NCBI GenBank assembly: GCA_019038695.1
Contig: JAHOYZ010000002.1
Span: forward strand, 1-53,228
DNA: 53,228 nt
DNA from: Candidatus Zixiibacteriota bacterium
Lineage (GTDB): Bacteria; Zixibacteria; MSB-5A5; GN15; FEB-12
Direction of reading: 5' to 3'
Under the pieces are notes generated by a model. The model was given only the letters and a program-made list of their open reading frames with translations. It searched no databases and was not told the origin of the DNA. Shown here piece by piece: positions 1 to 53,228 of the stretch. Position numbers and translations under genes: made by a program. Numbering within the stretch: position 1 is the first letter of the stretch; every line of letters starts with the position of its first letter.

Positions 1-1433
1 GGGTAGCGACCATTACGGCGCCGAGCGCCAACTGGAACGGATCCGAAACGATCACTTTCACAGCGACTGATCCAGGTGAGTTGTCTGATTCCGACCAGGC
101 CATTTTTACTGTAGTAGCTGTCAATCAGCCGCCACAGTTTTCCCAGGTCCCTCGAGACACGATTGTTACTGAAGGACAGGAATGCGTTCTCACAATATCT
201 TGTCACGACCTTGACGGCGATGATGTTACTTTTGAGTGTCTTCAATGTCCCGAAGGAGCTTATCTTGTCGACCAGGTCAATCAAACCGACTTTGTGTTCA
301 TACCGGACTATTCCGATGTCGACCAAAGCTATGTTGTGCAGATAGGAGCCTCTGATGGAATCGACGATATCGATACGTCATTTGGCCTTGATGTTGTTAA
401 CAGCCTTCTCCAGGTTATCAAAGACGCGGACACCCAGGGACCAACCCCTCCAGGTGATTGCCGTGAAAATCTTGTGACCGACACACTTGAGGTCTGGTTC
501 AATGAGAATGTAAGTACCAGTTCGTTGGTGAATCGAGTCAGTATGATTAGCAGACTAGGTGAACCAATGCCCATCTACCTCTACCAGGACAATCAGGATT
601 TCTTCAGGGTCGTCCCATCTGATGGTATGTTCACTCCCCTCGACAGGATTGGTTTGATAATTGACGCAGACGTGATGGATCTCAATGGCTACTCAATGGG
701 GACAGATGACACGGTGTGGGCGCATTTCGGTCCAGTTGTCTATCCGGGTGATGCCGACAACAACGGGATAGTTGATGAACGCGATATTCTTCGTCTGGGA
801 GTCTTCTGGGCCGAGACCGGTTGTGATCGCCACCAGAATCCGGAAGTTATTTGGACCATGAACGCAGCTCACGCCTGGGAGGAGCTACGTGCAACCTACG
901 CCGACATGGACGGCGACGGGGATGTTGACGCCGACGATATCTGTTGTGTTTCTGCAAACTGGGGAAAAACACCGCATGATGTTGCTGGCAGGAACGAAAT
1001 TGAAGAATCCCTAATGCCGGCACTCAAGAAGTTGGATGAGCGTTTCGTCGAACAAATATACAAGGCTTTAGCAGATTGCCCTGAAGGTGGAGCCAAGATG
1101 TCCCTCCTCGAGACTTTTGAGGCATTGTTGGATGAAGAATCGCCTTCTCTTCCATACTCATTTGCGCTGGCTCAGAATTACCCGAATCCATTCAACCCAT
1201 CGACAACAATCGAGTATTCGGTTTTGGTCGGCTGCCACGTTGAGATTGCGGTGTATGATCTCTTGGGGAAGAGAGTGAAATCATTGATTGATGAACCTGT
1301 GGAACGGGGGTTGTACACTACCGTCTGGGACGGAGCAGATGAGACCGGAACACGTGTTGCAAGCGGTATCTACTTCTACCGTATGCAGGCTGGTGACTAT
1401 GATTTCACCAGAAAGATGCTAATGCTTAAATAG
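1..1433 (+). CDS. Secreted Ig-like/dockerin protein with C-terminal sorting domain (5' truncated)
   Basis: The reading frame is open from base 3 to the stop at 1431-1433, so the N-terminus lies outside the window. About 476 residues are visible. The order is a cadherin/Ig-like repeat (with 'NWNGSETITFTA' at the left edge), a second beta-rich domain resembling bacterial Ig-like Big_5 (about 480-720), then a dockerin-type pair of calcium loops, 'DADNNGIVDERD' near 750 and 'DMDGDGDVDADD' near 903. The last ~90 residues are a type A sorting/FlgD-like domain: 'NYPNPFNPST', then 'YDLLGKRV' and 'GIYFYRM'. In Bacteroidetes-Chlorobi and relatives this domain directs export by the type IX system. The protein is therefore probably cell-surface or secreted. 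Its ligand cannot be told from the visible part. Confidence 0.85.
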   Translation, partial: VATITAPSANWNGSETITFTATDPGELSDSDQAIFTVVAVNQPPQFSQVPRDTIVTEGQECVLTISCHDLDGDDVTFECLQCPEGAYLVDQVNQTDFVFIPDYSDVDQSYVVQIGASDGIDDIDTSFGLDVVNSLLQVIKDADTQGPTPPGDCRENLVTDTLEVWFNENVSTSSLVNRVSMISRLGEPMPIYLYQDNQDFFRVVPSDGMFTPLDRIGLIIDADVMDLNGYSMGTDDTVWAHFGPVVYPGDADNNGIVDERDILRLGVFWAETGCDRHQNPEVIWTMNAAHAWEELRATYADMDGDGDVDADDICCVSANWGKTPHDVAGRNEIEESLMPALKKLDERFVEQIYKALADCPEGGAKMSLLETFEALLDEESPSLPYSFALAQNYPNPFNPSTTIEYSVLVGCHVEIAVYDLLGKRVKSLIDEPVERGLYTTVWDGADETGTRVASGIYFYRMQAGDYDFTRKMLMLK

Positions 1434-10587: not shown

Positions 10588-12129
10588 TCACGAAATACCG
10601 CCAACCGTTATTGATGACACCAGAATCGTGGGAAGTCCCATCGATACCGGCACTCCCTGACCACCCTTACCACAGGTCCAGCCGCCTTCAGCCATGGCCA
10701 TATCGTTGGCGACCATAGTTACTTTTTTCAGGCAGTTTGGACCGTTGCCTATCAGATTGATGTCTTTGATGGGCTTCGTTATCTTCCCATCTTCAATCAA
10801 GTTTCCTGACTTCACATAAAAAGTGAAATCGCCTGCTCCGATATCTACCTGACCATTAGTGAACTGTGAGACAAAGATGCCTTTCTTGACATTGCCGATT
10901 ATTTCTTTGACCTCGTGAGGACCGTCCGTCATGTAGGTATTGCGCATACGCGGTATCGGTGCAAAGCGGAAGGATTGGCGTCGCCCACTCCCGGTAGGTT
11001 TGACTCCGTAGAACTTGGCGCTGATTCTGTCATGCAGGTAGCTTTCGAGAATGCCGTCCCTCACGAGATATGTCTCCTGACTGTCCTGACCTTCATCATC
11101 AATATTGATTGATCCTCGAACATTGGCATTCTTACCGTTATCCACAATGGAAACGAATTTCTCGGCTACCGGCTTGCCGATCTTATCAGCGAAGATGGAC
11201 GTCCCTTTGCGATTGAAGTCTGCTTCCATCCCGTGACCAATGGCTTCATGCAATAAAATCCCGGAGCTTCCGGCTGCCAGTACAACTGGCATTTCGCCTG
11301 CTTCGGGCATAACCGCATCAAAAAGATTGACTGTGCGATTGACCGCCTCAGAGCCAATTCGATCCAGAGATTCGTTGGTCACAAACTCAATACCACGTCG
11401 GCCAGCCAGATCGAATCCGTTGCTCTCTCTTTTCCCATCCTGCTCTGCAGTACAGTAGCCGGAAACTCGAAGCATCGGTTGATAGTCACAGGCAATACGA
11501 CCATCGGAAGTTGCCACCATAATGTAGGAGTTATTATCGGAGAAACTGACACTGGTTTTGATCACCCGTTTATCGGCAGCATGCATGGCAGCATTGATCC
11601 GGTTGACCGCCGGGATACGCTGGTCGATACCGACATCTTCCCATTTCGTCTTGATTGGGTAGTAATCGGGAGTCGGATACAGAGCAAGGCTGGCAATAGT
11701 TCCCGGTGCAGTTCCCGCAGAAATACTGGCCGCTGTCTTGGCTGCCAGTTTCATCGCTTCGGGAGTGATTTCCTCGGTAAATGAATACCCGGTCTGGTCT
11801 CCCTTAACAACTCGGATGCCAACTCCAAAATCGACATTCGTATACGACCGATTGACAATGTCGTCTTCCAGAGCGACATAGCTGCTGGATGAATGCTGGA
11901 AGAAGAGATCGCAATAGTCTCCGCCGTTTTCAAGAGCGAGACCCATTGTCTTTCGGATCAAGTCTCTATCAACTCCAAAATGGCGCATGTAATCGTCAAG
12001 ATCTGAGCTCTCACTGAGACCTGGTGAAAAAGCCATAGCGGGATTGATCCTGAAGATTGCAGGGATTGTCGCCAATGCAACACCCTGAGCCCCCATCCTA
12101 ATGAATTTCCGCCTTGTGATGTTATCCAT
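10588..12129 (-). CDS. TldD-family metalloprotease with Tat signal
   Basis: The ATG at 12129 is preceded by a good GGAGG at seven bases. The 513-residue product begins with a twin-arginine signal, 'TRRKFIRMG' followed by a hydrophobic stretch to 'NPAMAFS', so it is probably exported folded. The zinc site HEAIGH is at 294-299, in the motif 'LLHEAIGHGMEADF'. The C-terminal domain ends with 'QFTNGQVDIGAGDFTF' and 'NGPNCLKKVTMVANDMA', normal for TldD. TldD is the catalytic subunit of the TldD/TldE protease. The E. coli enzyme is cytoplasmic; the exported form differs from it and suggests an envelope substrate. Confidence 0.88.
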   Translation of the reverse strand: MDNITRRKFIRMGAQGVALATIPAIFRINPAMAFSPGLSESSDLDDYMRHFGVDRDLIRKTMGLALENGGDYCDLFFQHSSSSYVALEDDIVNRSYTNVDFGVGIRVVKGDQTGYSFTEEITPEAMKLAAKTAASISAGTAPGTIASLALYPTPDYYPIKTKWEDVGIDQRIPAVNRINAAMHAADKRVIKTSVSFSDNNSYIMVATSDGRIACDYQPMLRVSGYCTAEQDGKRESNGFDLAGRRGIEFVTNESLDRIGSEAVNRTVNLFDAVMPEAGEMPVVLAAGSSGILLHEAIGHGMEADFNRKGTSIFADKIGKPVAEKFVSIVDNGKNANVRGSINIDDEGQDSQETYLVRDGILESYLHDRISAKFYGVKPTGSGRRQSFRFAPIPRMRNTYMTDGPHEVKEIIGNVKKGIFVSQFTNGQVDIGAGDFTFYVKSGNLIEDGKITKPIKDINLIGNGPNCLKKVTMVANDMAMAEGGWTCGKGGQGVPVSMGLPTILVSSITVGGIS

Positions 12130-23948: not shown

Positions 23949-23990
23949 TACAAAATTCTATTCATCAAGACAGTCTATATGCTCACTGAT

Positions 23991-24008
23991 CCCACAGCAA
24001 GCTGTGGG
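23991..24008. repeat. Palindromic repeat, family E (CCCACAGC-AA-GCTGTGGG)
   Basis: A perfect 8-bp stem. With its flanks (GATCCCAC...GTGGGCCACC) it matches copies at 49545-49562, in the opposite orientation, and 50108-50125. It lies between the HEPN and CYTH genes. Confidence 0.65.
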
Positions 24009-24024
24009 CCACCAACACCCCCTG

Positions 24025-47867: not shown

Positions 47868-49442
47868 ATGATTAGAAGATATCTGATGCCAGGCGACACC
47901 GGTGGAAAGAACGGCGACCTGGGACCGATGCCGCATGATGTTTTTATGGCAGGCAAGAAGCGAGGGATAGACTGGAAGAGAATCGGTCTGATGCTGCTCG
48001 GGGTTGGCCTTTTCTGCGGCGTCAATTTCTCGCCTCCCTGGCCGGATGTAATTGACCCGGCGGGAGAGGTTTTTCAGCTGTCTTCGCAGGGCAAAGCGGC
48101 GCTTGGACTTTTCCTATTGGCGGCTACCTGGTGGGTTTTTGAAGTAGTACCAATCGGCGTAACGAGTATTTTAATCGGCGTCACCCAGTGTCTTTTCCTC
48201 ATCAGACCCCCGGTCATCGGCATAGAAGGCAACGAAATCTTGAGTTCGGCCAAACGCGCCCTCGGTGATTTCATGGACCCATCGGTGTGGTTTATTCTTG
48301 GTTCTGTTGTCATTGGTATGGCCTTTTCAAAGACGGGCTTGACTAATCGCATGGCCTATAAAATGCTCATGATGGTTGGTGAGAAAACCAGCAGCATCTA
48401 CCTCGGAACATTTGTAATGACGGCGGCGCTGACAATCATCATGGCTCACACAGCCGTGGCTGCGGCTCTCTATCCCCTGCTGGCGGCCATTTATGCTCTG
48501 TATGATGCCGACAACAAACCGAGCAAATTTGGCAAAGGCCTGTTTATCGGAATGGCTTTTGTGGCCGGGGCTGGCAGTATTATCACGTTACTGGGTGCCG
48601 CACGTGGAGCAGTAGCGATCGGATTTTTCCGTGACATCGTGGGACGCGAGGTCGGGTTCTTCGAATTGTCGTATTACATGGCTCCGGTGGGGATACTCAT
48701 GACTTTCCTGTTATGGGGATTCATAATGGTTTTCTTCAAGCCGGAACACAGTACTATTCCCGGCCTGAGGGAACGAGCATCTGCGTTGAGCAAGAAACTG
48801 GGACCGATGAGCAGGCCCGAAATACTTACTTTGGTGGTTGTTGGTCTGACGGTCATTACTCTAAGTTGTCGCTCCTTTATCCCCGGCCTTGAGAACCTCA
48901 ACAAGAGCGCTATTATCCTGATTTCGACGATACTCTTTTTTGTTTTCAGGATTCTATCTATTAAGGATCTGGAATTGATTCCCTGGAACATCATCCTGCT
49001 GTTTGGTGGTGCTATGAGCATCGGATTCTGTCTGTGGCAGACAGGTGCAGCAAGCTGGATGGCCATCAACTGGTTGGGCTTGTTGGAGACGGCCCCGTCT
49101 TTTGTGTTCATCATGGGAGTGTCAATATTTGTACTGTTGATGACCAATTTCATAATGAACGTAGCCGCCATCGCCATTTCTTTACCGGTGGCACTGGTTA
49201 TCGCTCCCTATCTCGGTGTATCACCGGAAGTCATACTGTTTTCCTCACTGGTTATGGCAGGAATGCCATTCCTTCTCCTGGTAGGTGCGGCACCGAATGC
49301 CATTGCTTACGAGAGCAAGCAGTTTACCAGCGGTGAATTCTTCACTGCCGGTATTCCAGCCAGCGTGTTGCTAACGGTAGTTCTGGCCCTGTTCGTGGGA
49401 GTTATCTGGCCGATGATGGGCATGCCGGTGACGCTGCCCTAA
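47868..49442 (+). CDS. DASS-family (SLC13) sodium:anion symporter
   Basis: The 524-residue protein has a ~40-residue hydrophilic N-terminus and about twelve membrane helices in two inverted halves. 'IIMAHTAVAAALYPLLAA' and 'TNFIMNVAAIAISLPVALV' correspond to the two substrate/sodium-binding SNT-like tips, and 'GAAPNAIAYESKQFTSGEFF' is the C-terminal family signature. Relatives move dicarboxylates, citrate, phosphate or sulfate with sodium. A DNA stretch inside (48689-48743) is exactly repeated at the contig end. AGGA seven bases before the ATG supports the start. Confidence 0.9.
   Translation: MIRRYLMPGDTGGKNGDLGPMPHDVFMAGKKRGIDWKRIGLMLLGVGLFCGVNFSPPWPDVIDPAGEVFQLSSQGKAALGLFLLAATWWVFEVVPIGVTSILIGVTQCLFLIRPPVIGIEGNEILSSAKRALGDFMDPSVWFILGSVVIGMAFSKTGLTNRMAYKMLMMVGEKTSSIYLGTFVMTAALTIIMAHTAVAAALYPLLAAIYALYDADNKPSKFGKGLFIGMAFVAGAGSIITLLGAARGAVAIGFFRDIVGREVGFFELSYYMAPVGILMTFLLWGFIMVFFKPEHSTIPGLRERASALSKKLGPMSRPEILTLVVVGLTVITLSCRSFIPGLENLNKSAIILISTILFFVFRILSIKDLELIPWNIILLFGGAMSIGFCLWQTGAASWMAINWLGLLETAPSFVFIMGVSIFVLLMTNFIMNVAAIAISLPVALVIAPYLGVSPEVILFSSLVMAGMPFLLLVGAAPNAIAYESKQFTSGEFFTAGIPASVLLTVVLALFVGVIWPMMGMPVTLP
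48689..48743. repeat. Internal copy of the 55-mer found at the contig end
   Basis: Identical, base for base, to 53174-53228. It lies within the DASS gene and encodes a normal part of it ('MTFLLWGFIMVFFKP'), so this copy is genuine coding sequence and the end copy is the odd one. Confidence 0.95.
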
Positions 49443-49464
49443 GCGGAGAAAGTTAATGTTGCTA

Positions 49465-49490
49465 GATGCCGGATCAAGCCCGGCATGACA
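49465..49490. repeat. REP-like palindrome, family A, left copy
   Basis: ATGCCGG, loop, CCGGCAT inside GATGCCGGATCAAG.CCGG plus CATGACA. An inverted copy with one change is at 50913-50938. The two flank the RAYT and methyltransferase genes. Confidence 0.8.
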
Positions 49491-49501
49491 AGGCTTGGTA
49501 G

Positions 49502-49524
49502 GTCAGGAGGCTTGTCCTCCTGAC
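49502..49524. repeat. Palindrome GTCAGGAGG/CCTCCTGAC (family D-like)
   Basis: A perfect 9-bp stem with loop CTTGT, twelve bases after the family A copy. Part of the repeat cluster before the RAYT gene. Confidence 0.7.
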
Positions 49525-49544
49525 AATTGCATCAGGCTGGGTGG

Positions 49545-49562
49545 CCCACCGCTTGCGGTGGG
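49545..49562. repeat. Palindrome family E (CCCACCGC-TT-GCGGTGGG)
   Basis: A perfect 8-bp stem; with its flanks GGTGG... and ...GATCAG it is the counterpart, in opposite orientation, of 23991-24008. Confidence 0.7.
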
Positions 49563-49587
49563 ATCAGCAAATACATAGATTACCTCA

Positions 49588-50094
49588 ATGACTAAGCTGC
49601 GTCACATAGATGATGGCGGTACAGCCCGCTTTGTGACTTTCAGTTGCTATCGCCATCTTCCCTGCCTTTCCACTCCGCGCATACGGGATATTGCGGTGGA
49701 AGAACTTCGCCGCGTCGCACAGAAATACGATATCCGTATTCTGGGCTTTGTTATCATGCCTGATCATGTGCATCTCGTTCTGTGGCCACCGGACGGTACA
49801 CAACTTGGGCGAGTAATCGGAGAAATGAAATCGTTGTCGGCGAGGAGAGTTTTTTCGGAGCAAACGTCGATTCAGTCAGGGAAGAAACGGGTACTGTGGC
49901 AGCGCCGTTGTTATGATCACAATTGTCGGACGCCGGAAGTAGTTAAGGAGAAAATCAAGTACTGTCATGGCAATCCAATGAGAGCAGGTCTGGTATCATC
50001 TCTGGCAGATTGGCGTTGGTCCAGTTATAACTGCTACGAGGGCAACAAAGATGTACTTCTGGATATAGACATAGTAGAGTTTAGGGGAAGGTGA
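49588..50094 (+). CDS. REP-associated tyrosine transposase (RAYT, Y1_Tnp)
   Basis: The 168-residue protein is a single-domain Y1 transposase. The HUH site is H60/H62 in 'IMPDHVHLVLWP' and the catalytic tyrosine is likely Y125 in 'KYCHGNPMRAGLV'. RAYTs are single-copy relatives of IS200/IS605 transposases that act on REP palindromes. Both sides of this gene carry such palindromes (49465-49562 and 50108-50125), which supports the assignment. It seems intact; no ribosome site is obvious. Confidence 0.92.
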   Translation: MTKLRHIDDGGTARFVTFSCYRHLPCLSTPRIRDIAVEELRRVAQKYDIRILGFVIMPDHVHLVLWPPDGTQLGRVIGEMKSLSARRVFSEQTSIQSGKKRVLWQRRCYDHNCRTPEVVKEKIKYCHGNPMRAGLVSSLADWRWSSYNCYEGNKDVLLDIDIVEFRGR

Positions 50095-50107
50095 GATGCT
50101 AAGGGAA

Positions 50108-50125
50108 CCTACAGCAAGCTGTGGG
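50108..50125. repeat. Palindrome family E (CCTACAGC-AA-GCTGTGGG)
   Basis: A slightly degenerate stem fourteen bases after the RAYT stop, in opposite orientation to the copy ahead of the gene. Confidence 0.65.
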
Positions 50126-50158
50126 CCACCCAGCCATTGGTACGAGTGAGATAAGAGC

Positions 50159-50785
50159 ATGACGAAAATCAATAAAGACATTGTCAAAGCCGGGTACAAC
50201 ACTATCTCCAATGAGTATCTTGCGGCTCGTACCAAGAACTCCAGAGATGTACAACTACTTGAGGAGCTGGTCCAGCGACTGCCACGAGGTGCACGTATTC
50301 TCGATGCTGGTTGCGGTGCCGGCGTACCCATTACCCGGTTGCTGAGTCAGCACTTTGAAGTAGTGGGTGTTGACTTCTCCGAAGCACAAATCAAATTGGC
50401 GCAGCAACTCGTGCCCGAAGCCCAATTCGTCTGCGAAGATATGACTGAACTTAGTTTTCAGGATGCTACCTTCGACGCGATCTGTTCTTACTATGCGATC
50501 ATCCATGTGCCCCGGCAAGAACACAAGACTATCTTTAGGCAGTTCTTTCGTCTCCTTAAGCCATCCGGGCTGGCTCTTCTGTGTTTGGGAGCGGATGATC
50601 TGGATGATGACATTGTCGAGGACTATATGGGCGTGAAGATGTATTGGAGTCATTACGATGTCGAGACCAATTTGGCTATGTTGGCAGACTGTGGATTCGA
50701 GCCAATCTGGTCACGAGTAGTGGAGGATGCCTCATGTCCCGGGTCCGGCCATTTATTCGTTCTGTTACAGAAGAAACGGGCCTAG
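50159..50785 (+). CDS. SAM-dependent methyltransferase (class I)
   Basis: The 208-residue protein has a Rossmann-type methyltransferase fold: motif I 'ILDAGCGAGVPITRLL', motif II 'VVGVDFSEAQIKLAQ', 'FVCEDMTELSF' and 'FDAICSYYAIIHVPR'. The substrate is not evident; the small size and tail suit small-molecule or metabolite methylation. It sits between RAYT and the right family A/B/C repeats, so it may be cargo of, or simply bounded by, the repeats. Confidence 0.85.
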   Translation: MTKINKDIVKAGYNTISNEYLAARTKNSRDVQLLEELVQRLPRGARILDAGCGAGVPITRLLSQHFEVVGVDFSEAQIKLAQQLVPEAQFVCEDMTELSFQDATFDAICSYYAIIHVPRQEHKTIFRQFFRLLKPSGLALLCLGADDLDDDIVEDYMGVKMYWSHYDVETNLAMLADCGFEPIWSRVVEDASCPGSGHLFVLLQKKRA

Positions 50786-50820
50786 TGCCGGCACACTGTC
50801 ATGCAAGCAATTTTATAAAG

Positions 50821-50875
50821 GGTCAGACGAGGGCATCTGCCGCCCTCCGAACCGGCCCAAGTTTGAGCCGGGCAC
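50821..50875. repeat. Composite palindromic repeat (families B and C)
   Basis: GGTCAGACGAGGGCATCTGCC.. (50821-50845, family B) followed at 50851-50875 by ACCGGCCCAAG/TTTGAGCCGGG (family C). This is the inverted form of the C-then-B unit at 22082-22186. Confidence 0.7.
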
Positions 50876-50912
50876 CCGGTAACAAAGTTCAACCGCCCAC
50901 CAATCACAATCT

Positions 50913-50938
50913 GTCATGCCGGACTTGATCCGGCATCC
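50913..50938. repeat. REP-like palindrome, family A, right copy (inverted)
   Basis: ATGCCGG-ACTTGAT-CCGGCAT; reverse complement of the left copy with a single base difference over 26 bases. Confidence 0.8.
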
Positions 50939-50995
50939 AGTTCCGGATTCGAAGACTGGATTCCCTAACTTCACAAACGAAGTGCAACACCATTA

Positions 50996-51029
50996 ATAAG
51001 AAAACGGCTCCTTCAAACTGAAGGAGCCG
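50996..51029 (-). terminator. Terminator after the binding-protein gene
   Basis: Minus-strand stem CGGCTCCTTC/GAAGGAGCCG with loop AGTTT, followed by TTTTCTTATT, 29 bases past the stop at 51058. Confidence 0.88.
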
Positions 51030-51057
51030 CGTTGTATTTCAACGTTTGATGTCGTTC

Positions 51058-52335
51058 CTATTCCCCAGCATACGCTTCGAGTGGCTCAAGGCTGGTCGAT
51101 AGGCCAGCCCGCTCTCTCTGCAGGTTCCACTCCTCACGTGTCGCAACAACGGATTGTCCCGACACTTTGTCCAGAATATTGAAGAAGTCGAGCTGGTAAC
51201 CATCGGCAAGCACTTCATTCTTCGGCTTGCCCTGGACAACGTAGACCGACTGCACACACTGGTGGTCCCAACTACGCCACTGCTGCTGATCCTTCAGTGA
51301 TGAGAACTGGCGTCCCTCAAGATTCTCAATCACAGCCGGGGCATCGAACGAACCAACCTGCTGGACAGCAATCTGATATTCTTTGAGACAGGTATAGGCG
51401 TTGGCCGCCAGACTGCTCGGGTAGCGACCGAAACGCTCAGAGAAGCGGTCTACAAAGCCGATGCCCTCAGGGTGATTATACTTGTAGGGAACACACCAGG
51501 TCCAGTCGGTACAACCGACAACACCCGCCATAGCATCGGCCCCGACGGCTTCGGCCAGATCTAAAGTGACAACTGGCGCAACTACCTCAAGTTTATCTTT
51601 CAGGCCATTGGCTGAGATCATCTTGAGGCTCGCGACCAGATCATCACCCAACTGGACCAAAATCAGAGCCTTTGGTTGACAGGCACGAACTTGATCCAGG
51701 ATGTTTTCAAGGGCTGGTCCGTTGGTCCCCGGAGGAATGAGAAATCTTTTATGATCGACTTCATCCCTGGTCTGGGTCCAGTTCCGGAGATTGCTCTCAG
51801 TTGACCATCCCCATCTTTGATCAGTTACGAGATAGCAGAGCTTCTGGCCGGACAAATTTTGGTTCATGTAGTCAGCTGTAGCTCGGGCCGCCATCCTCGG
51901 GTTGAAACCACCCTGAAACGAATAACGGTGAGATTTCTTGCCGCCATCGGTATTGGCAAACGCAACCGGAGCCATGAAGACTACTTCGCTACGTTGACAG
52001 ATATCGGATACGATCCCGGTAGCCTCGCCGGAGACACCGCCAAAGACAGCCTCGACCCTCTGATTCTTGATGAGTTCAAAAACACTTTCGGCCGACACAT
52101 CCGCTCTTGATTTTGAATCCATGATGATGAGTTCAACCTGGTGTCCCAGAATGCCACCGTCGGCATTGATTTCTTCGACCGCCATCACAGCAGCACGTTG
52201 CTGATCTTGTCCGTAAACCGAGTAGGAACCAGATTGCGGGGAGATCAAACCGAGTTTAACGGTCTGCTCAGCAGCGGCCACAGTTCCCAGTACGATCAAA
52301 ATTGCGACCAGACTGATGGTGTAAATTGTCTTCAT
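51058..52335 (-). CDS. Branched-chain amino-acid/amide-type ABC substrate-binding protein
   Basis: The 425-residue protein has a signal peptide ('MKTIYTISLVAILIVLG...AAA') and the periplasmic-binding type I fold of the LivJ/UrtA family: 'KLGLISPQSGSYSVYGQDQ', 'AVEEINADGGILGHQVELI' and 'VEAVFGGVSGEATGIVSDI'. It would bind amino acids, urea, amides or similar ligands. No permease or ATPase genes are nearby, so it is an orphan component or a sensor. GGGAGG sits about ten bases before the ATG. Confidence 0.88.
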   Translation of the reverse strand: MKTIYTISLVAILIVLGTVAAAEQTVKLGLISPQSGSYSVYGQDQQRAAVMAVEEINADGGILGHQVELIIMDSKSRADVSAESVFELIKNQRVEAVFGGVSGEATGIVSDICQRSEVVFMAPVAFANTDGGKKSHRYSFQGGFNPRMAARATADYMNQNLSGQKLCYLVTDQRWGWSTESNLRNWTQTRDEVDHKRFLIPPGTNGPALENILDQVRACQPKALILVQLGDDLVASLKMISANGLKDKLEVVAPVVTLDLAEAVGADAMAGVVGCTDWTWCVPYKYNHPEGIGFVDRFSERFGRYPSSLAANAYTCLKEYQIAVQQVGSFDAPAVIENLEGRQFSSLKDQQQWRSWDHQCVQSVYVVQGKPKNEVLADGYQLDFFNILDKVSGQSVVATREEWNLQRERAGLSTSLEPLEAYAGE

Positions 52336-52541
52336 GGATTTAGTACCTCCCGTTTATCTTGTTCTGTTCCGATCTTATTGATCCTGTTATCATTCTATCT
52401 TTTAACCAGGGTGCAGGAGACGACCTGCAACCCCCATTTGAGTTGTCGGTAGCCCGGCAGCCGGCAATCATCGATTGGATTTTGAGTTCCATATTCAAGC
52501 CAGTCTTTGGTCCATTCTGTGCAACTGCTGAGCAACTTGAA

Positions 52542-53006
52542 TTATGGTTCATACGATACATGGTTCATTGGCCTTAGCTTGCTCCGGCGAGGATGTTTCA
52601 CCGACGGAATGAAAAAATCACGTCCTTCTGGACGACGTAAACGGATCGTGTAATCCTGACATGCCCGACAGCGGCGAATCTTTCCAGCCGCCTCGACCTT
52701 GATGCGTCGGCGCGGTTTGTGGTTCGGAGAGTAGATAGCCTTTCCGACTATCTCGTAACCCTGGCTGGCATCATCGTCATCAATCCACTTGACGCCTTCG
52801 GTTACCTCACCAGTTTCGGAGTCATAAATCGTGGCCCCGGGGCATTCGATGAAGACATGCTCGCTGGTCTCAATATCATCTACAAAGATATTGGTAGTAT
52901 CAATTGCCCTGGGATTGCATTTGGCACAAAGCCAGACTCCTTTATGGCGGATCAGAGGTCGGCCACAATTGATACATAGTTTCCGGTCTTCAGGCTGCTT
53001 ATCCAT
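52542..53006 (-). CDS. Small zinc-ribbon protein of unknown function
   Basis: The 154-residue protein starts with a two-CxxC zinc ribbon, C11/C14 and C27/C30 ('KLCINCGRPL', 'LCAKCNP'), then an acidic domain and a basic C-terminus with a further CxxC-like pair ('RRCRACQDY'). The C-terminal part is rich in Arg/Lys, suggesting nucleic-acid contact. I do not recognise a family. AAGGAG lies two to three bases before the ATG, closer than usual. Confidence 0.6.
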   Translation of the reverse strand: MDKQPEDRKLCINCGRPLIRHKGVWLCAKCNPRAIDTTNIFVDDIETSEHVFIECPGATIYDSETGEVTEGVKWIDDDDASQGYEIVGKAIYSPNHKPRRRIKVEAAGKIRRCRACQDYTIRLRRPEGRDFFIPSVKHPRRSKLRPMNHVSYEP

Positions 53007-53173
53007 GACTCCTTCTTTGTTTATCCTGGGTCAGGGTCATTTACTGTCTTGTTTCAGTATTAATCTATGCAAGCTCGTTGCCAACCTGGTCTGTCAGGCG
53101 TTATTGACATAGCATTCATGCAGTTACGGAAATATTTCTATCCTTGAGACGGAGGAAAACAAAATCAAATGGG

Positions 53174-53228
53174 GGGGATACTCATGACTTTCCTGTTATG
53201 GGGATTCATAATGGTTTTCTTCAAGCCG
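53174..53228. other. Terminal 55-mer duplicated from the DASS gene (probable assembly end)
   Basis: The last 55 bases equal 48689-48743 exactly and then the sequence stops. The preceding base run is GGG against GGT in the internal copy, so identity begins exactly here. A 55-base exact overlap at a contig end is what a de Bruijn assembler with k = 55 leaves at a graph branch. Confidence 0.9.

Follow-up and report, generated by a model that had tools for sequence, protein, structure and literature searches.

Genes and repeats at the right end of the contig

The window analysed here is a complete contig (C2; 53,228 nucleotides) of a 58-contig, 3.28 Mb Candidatus Zixiibacteriota MAG. Towards its right end, a gene at 47868-49442 encodes a 524-aa transporter of the DASS family (Pfam Na_sulph_symp, E 5e-45), and further to the right lie a binding-protein gene and a zinc-ribbon-like gene, the latter on the reverse strand (Table 1). 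Between the transporter gene and the binding-protein gene, positions 49588-50785 hold a Y1-type (REP-associated-like) transposase gene and a methyltransferase gene, both of which are missing at this place in a same-genus MAG (L014, about 12000-12090). A palindrome-bearing repeat of 35 bases (50096-50130) follows directly after the transposase gene and is 86% like 23979-24013.

Direct comparison within the window established that 53174-53228 is identical to 48689-48743 over all 55 bases, that the bases preceding the two copies are unequal (G at 53173 vs T at 48688), and that the later copy finishes where the contig does, at 53228. No 55-base match was obtained in 100 dinucleotide shuffles, and the only other exact direct repeat of at least 20 bases in the window is one unrelated 20-mer pair (23994/50111). 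The G at 53173 belongs to a run of seven (53171-53177), and its last four Gs, 53174-53177, fit either side of the join; the foreign tail is therefore 53178-53228. Beyond these shared bases the window reads ATACTCATG, on the transporter side; the putatively false path runs from the G-run into ATACTCATGACTTTCC.

Table 1. Features bearing on the right end of contig C2, in window coordinates
Feature	Position	Strand	Remark
Left terminal 55-mer	1..55	+	Same sequence as the C25 terminus (last 55 bases, 115803-115857); shows k = 55
Internal 55-mer copy (graph vertex)	48689..48743	+	Inside the DASS-family transporter gene 47868-49442
Zinc-ribbon-like gene, 154 aa	52542..53006	-	Genes for its conserved upstream neighbours (123 and 111 aa) located on C23
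54 bases (k-1) shared with C23	53124..53177	+	Exact match to the reverse-complemented C23 right end (156980-157033); judged genuine, putative true join site
Seven-G run	53171..53177	+	Putative branch point; would supply the microhomology for the false join
Terminal 55-mer	53174..53228	+	Second occurrence of the vertex; would close a self-loop of 4,485 bp
Putatively misjoined tail, 51 bases	53178..53228	+	Identical to 48693-48743 of the transporter gene

Terminal k-mers across the assembly

All 116 contig ends of the assembly were fetched for comparison, of which 114 were readable, the two of C18 being masked. Among these, 50 matched another contig end exactly over at least 55 bases, most often over exactly 55, so that a repeat as long as the assembler's k, as an artefact would give, is found here, at the other end of C2 and at many further ends. 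Both the exactness of the copy, taken from mid DASS gene and broken off at 53173, and its interpretation as a node of a k = 55 assembly graph had been proposed in the earlier note, and both are borne out. The left contig end (1-124; L007-L009, C25) sits inside a repeat of 288-base period at the C25 end, which probably explains the break on that side.

Contigs from metaSPAdes and MEGAHIT have end sequences of length maxK in common (PMC10914622), and the exact 55-base end overlaps across this assembly, including the one at the left end of C2, are of this kind. The copied 55-mer at the right end differs in that its other copy belongs to the interior of the same contig rather than to the end of another, and the shape of the graph is therefore a self-loop (lasso), not a plain branch. 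In being an exact repeat of one k-mer at the end of a contig, the feature also resembles the direct terminal repeat of length k that is taken for circularity; here, however, its counterpart lies 4,485 bp upstream in the interior, and C2 as a whole is thus not circular.

One further contig shows the same pattern. The last 55 bases of C26 occur identically 497 bases further upstream within that contig (L193; C26:170033-170087 and 170530-170584), and the left flanks of its two copies are unrelated (25/120 bases identical). It was the sole further self-copied end among the 44 searched, in three pools, of the 48 other ends that had no good end-to-end partner (all but C3R, C5L, C7R and C40L), and a self-loop is accordingly uncommon in this assembly, yet not unique to C2.

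The right neighbour of the contig

A search of the MAG's own sequence with 52900-53228 hit three places: the query region, the copy in the transporter gene, and one end of contig C23. The C23 match is exact over 53124-53177 and then diverges, so that another contig does continue from just before the copied k-mer, as would be expected if the copy were an artefact; past the shared 54 bases, the reverse complement of C23 reads GGG AGGCTATAGATTGAGGGGC, and past the G-run it continues as GGGAGGCTATAG. Such a 54-base overlap with a tail occurs in five contig pairs of the assembly, C2-C23 being one.

The same-genus MAG (QNAG01000001.1; L014) reads AATGGGGGATGTCGGCTATTGATTGATGGGGC at the corresponding place, giving AATGGGGGATGTCGGCTATTGATTGATGGGG where C2 joined to C23 would give AAATG(10)AGGCTATAGATTGAGGGGC. 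The length of the G-run at the join is seven in C2, ten in C23 and five in this congener. In local alignment to the congener beyond the branch, the C23 continuation scored 88, against a shuffle mean of 20 and maximum of 30, whereas the transporter continuation scored 20 (shuffle mean 20, maximum 27).

Gene order in the relatives agrees with this. Candidatus Zixiibacteriota / GN15 MAGs were located with the zinc-ribbon protein, and 26 of their loci were examined, two of which (L013 and L035) end too near the zinc-ribbon gene to tell, leaving 24 informative. The gene for the 123-aa protein at the C23 end stands upstream of the zinc-ribbon gene in 24/24 of these loci, and that for the 111-aa protein does so in 23/24, L016 having the 123-aa gene only; because certain genomes are represented twice, once in each of two collections, fewer than 24 independent genomes stand behind these counts. 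Neither small protein has a Pfam match. The zinc-ribbon-like protein and the two small proteins (123 and 111 aa; 52542-53006 and L004:6231-6924) form a gene order conserved across the family.

The alternative continuation is thus the conserved chromosomal one, both in its congener homology and in the relatives' gene order, and on these sequence comparisons C23 is the true right neighbour of C2. From the C23 overlap, the congener homology past the junction and the relatives' gene order taken together, we judge that 53007-53177 is genuine and that the misjoined part is only the 51 bases 53178-53228. The suggestion that the ~170 bases after the zinc-ribbon gene were a false join consequently survives for 53178-53228 and falls for 53007-53177, the last 54 bases of which recur at the C23 end.

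Proposed origin of the contig end

We propose, with a probability of roughly 0.87, that the contig end is an assembly-graph self-loop made via a false link at the G-run, the true link to C23 having been cut. Under this proposal, the path from the zinc-ribbon side in the k = 55 de Bruijn graph would have had two continuations at the G-run 53171-53177, a true one leading to C23 and a false one leading in 51 steps, through the common GGGG, to the vertex 48689-48743 of C2 itself. The C23 link would then have been cut, leaving an overlap of k-1 = 54 bases, and the contig would have followed the false link to the already-used vertex and halted there with one k-mer copied. The last 51 bases are most likely, then, an assembly error that looped the contig into its own transporter gene, and the contig end is an ordinary artefact, not a real feature.

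When two places that have m bases in common are joined, a de Bruijn graph gains k - m new steps, and the length of the tail, 51 = 55 - 4 (GGGG), fits this exactly. The C23 overlap, being 54 bases and not 55, indicates that the cut between C23 and C2 came a single step past the branch. A chimeric read or molecule, formed at the shared GGGG, may have supplied the false link. Chimeric reads formed through short microhomology in library end-repair, as described for fixed tumour samples (PMC8674242), similarly join distant places via a few shared bases (GGGG here).

That the assembler should have cut the true link while keeping the false one is odd and is the main unexplained point of the proposal, which would require coverage to have dropped locally at the G-run. 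A literature text search for a metaSPAdes weak-edge rule found nothing, and the cutting step is thus one that we infer. The genome has runs of at least 10 G only at C23:156977-156986, C30:45-55 and C40:1-28. None is farther than 60 bases from a contig end, a zone that accounts for ~0.2% of the total length (116 x 60 / 3.28 Mb). Given that the long G-runs are all at contig ends and that the G28 of C40 looks like failed base calls, sequencing trouble in the long G-run is the likely reason why the true link would have been weakened, and the G-run probably caused the break at the right end of C2. A simple poly-G read tail was considered as the whole cause and rejected: it might explain the weak true link, which the G28 of C40 would fit, but it cannot by itself run on into transporter sequence, so a chimeric molecule would still be required. 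A literature search on poly-G in two-colour sequencing gave nothing usable.

Alternative explanations

The tail could instead be real. Part of the sampled population might carry the 4,485-bp stretch 48689-53173 as a tandem duplication or amplification, or as an excised circle, formed at the GGGG microhomology, in which case the junction would be true minority sequence and the graph loop real. The anatomy of the junction, with its direct orientation and short distance, fits a microhomology-mediated duplication, and it would suit a real junction that error removal by the assembler spared the false-side link and not the C23 link. The unit concerned, with its binding-protein, methyltransferase, Y1-type transposase and zinc-ribbon genes, nevertheless runs from the middle of the transporter gene to an intergenic G-run, and its limits are therefore not gene or mobile-element boundaries. 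The relatives, moreover, have the single-copy C23 arrangement, and the same signature at an unrelated place in C26 favours a common technical cause, so that we regard a minority duplication or circle as unlikely.

Far less probable still is the earlier note's suggestion that a second, related transporter sequence lies beyond the zinc-ribbon gene, with only its first 55 bases assembled. The tail can be read as an 18-residue transporter fragment, but the identity covers exactly 55 bases, the k of the graph, and the true continuation is supplied by C23 and is homologous in the congener. Searches of the MAG's own assembly for a second copy found just the 55-mer and distant paralogues, and no homologous stretch longer than k; the nearest of these DASS-like genes, located inside C43 and C55, show 27% and 25% identity. 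Because every informative locus in the relatives also carries genes of C23 type on the upstream side of the zinc-ribbon gene, we set this suggestion aside and retain the self-loop reading.

Consequences for curation and a further pair of contigs

The significance of the finding is mainly for curation. We recommend removing 53178-53228 and linking C2 with C23 into a sequence of about 210 kb. Long G-runs break this assembly, and any contig whose end repeats a k-mer of its interior is best trimmed before its ends are used for joining or its repeats are analysed.

The terminal G28 of C40 stands where the overlapping end of C30 suggests a C-run (L194/L195: C30:1-71, C40:1-71), and it likely consists of failed base calls written as G. 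The two ends share a 44-base overlap containing two differences, and the contigs probably adjoin in the genome.
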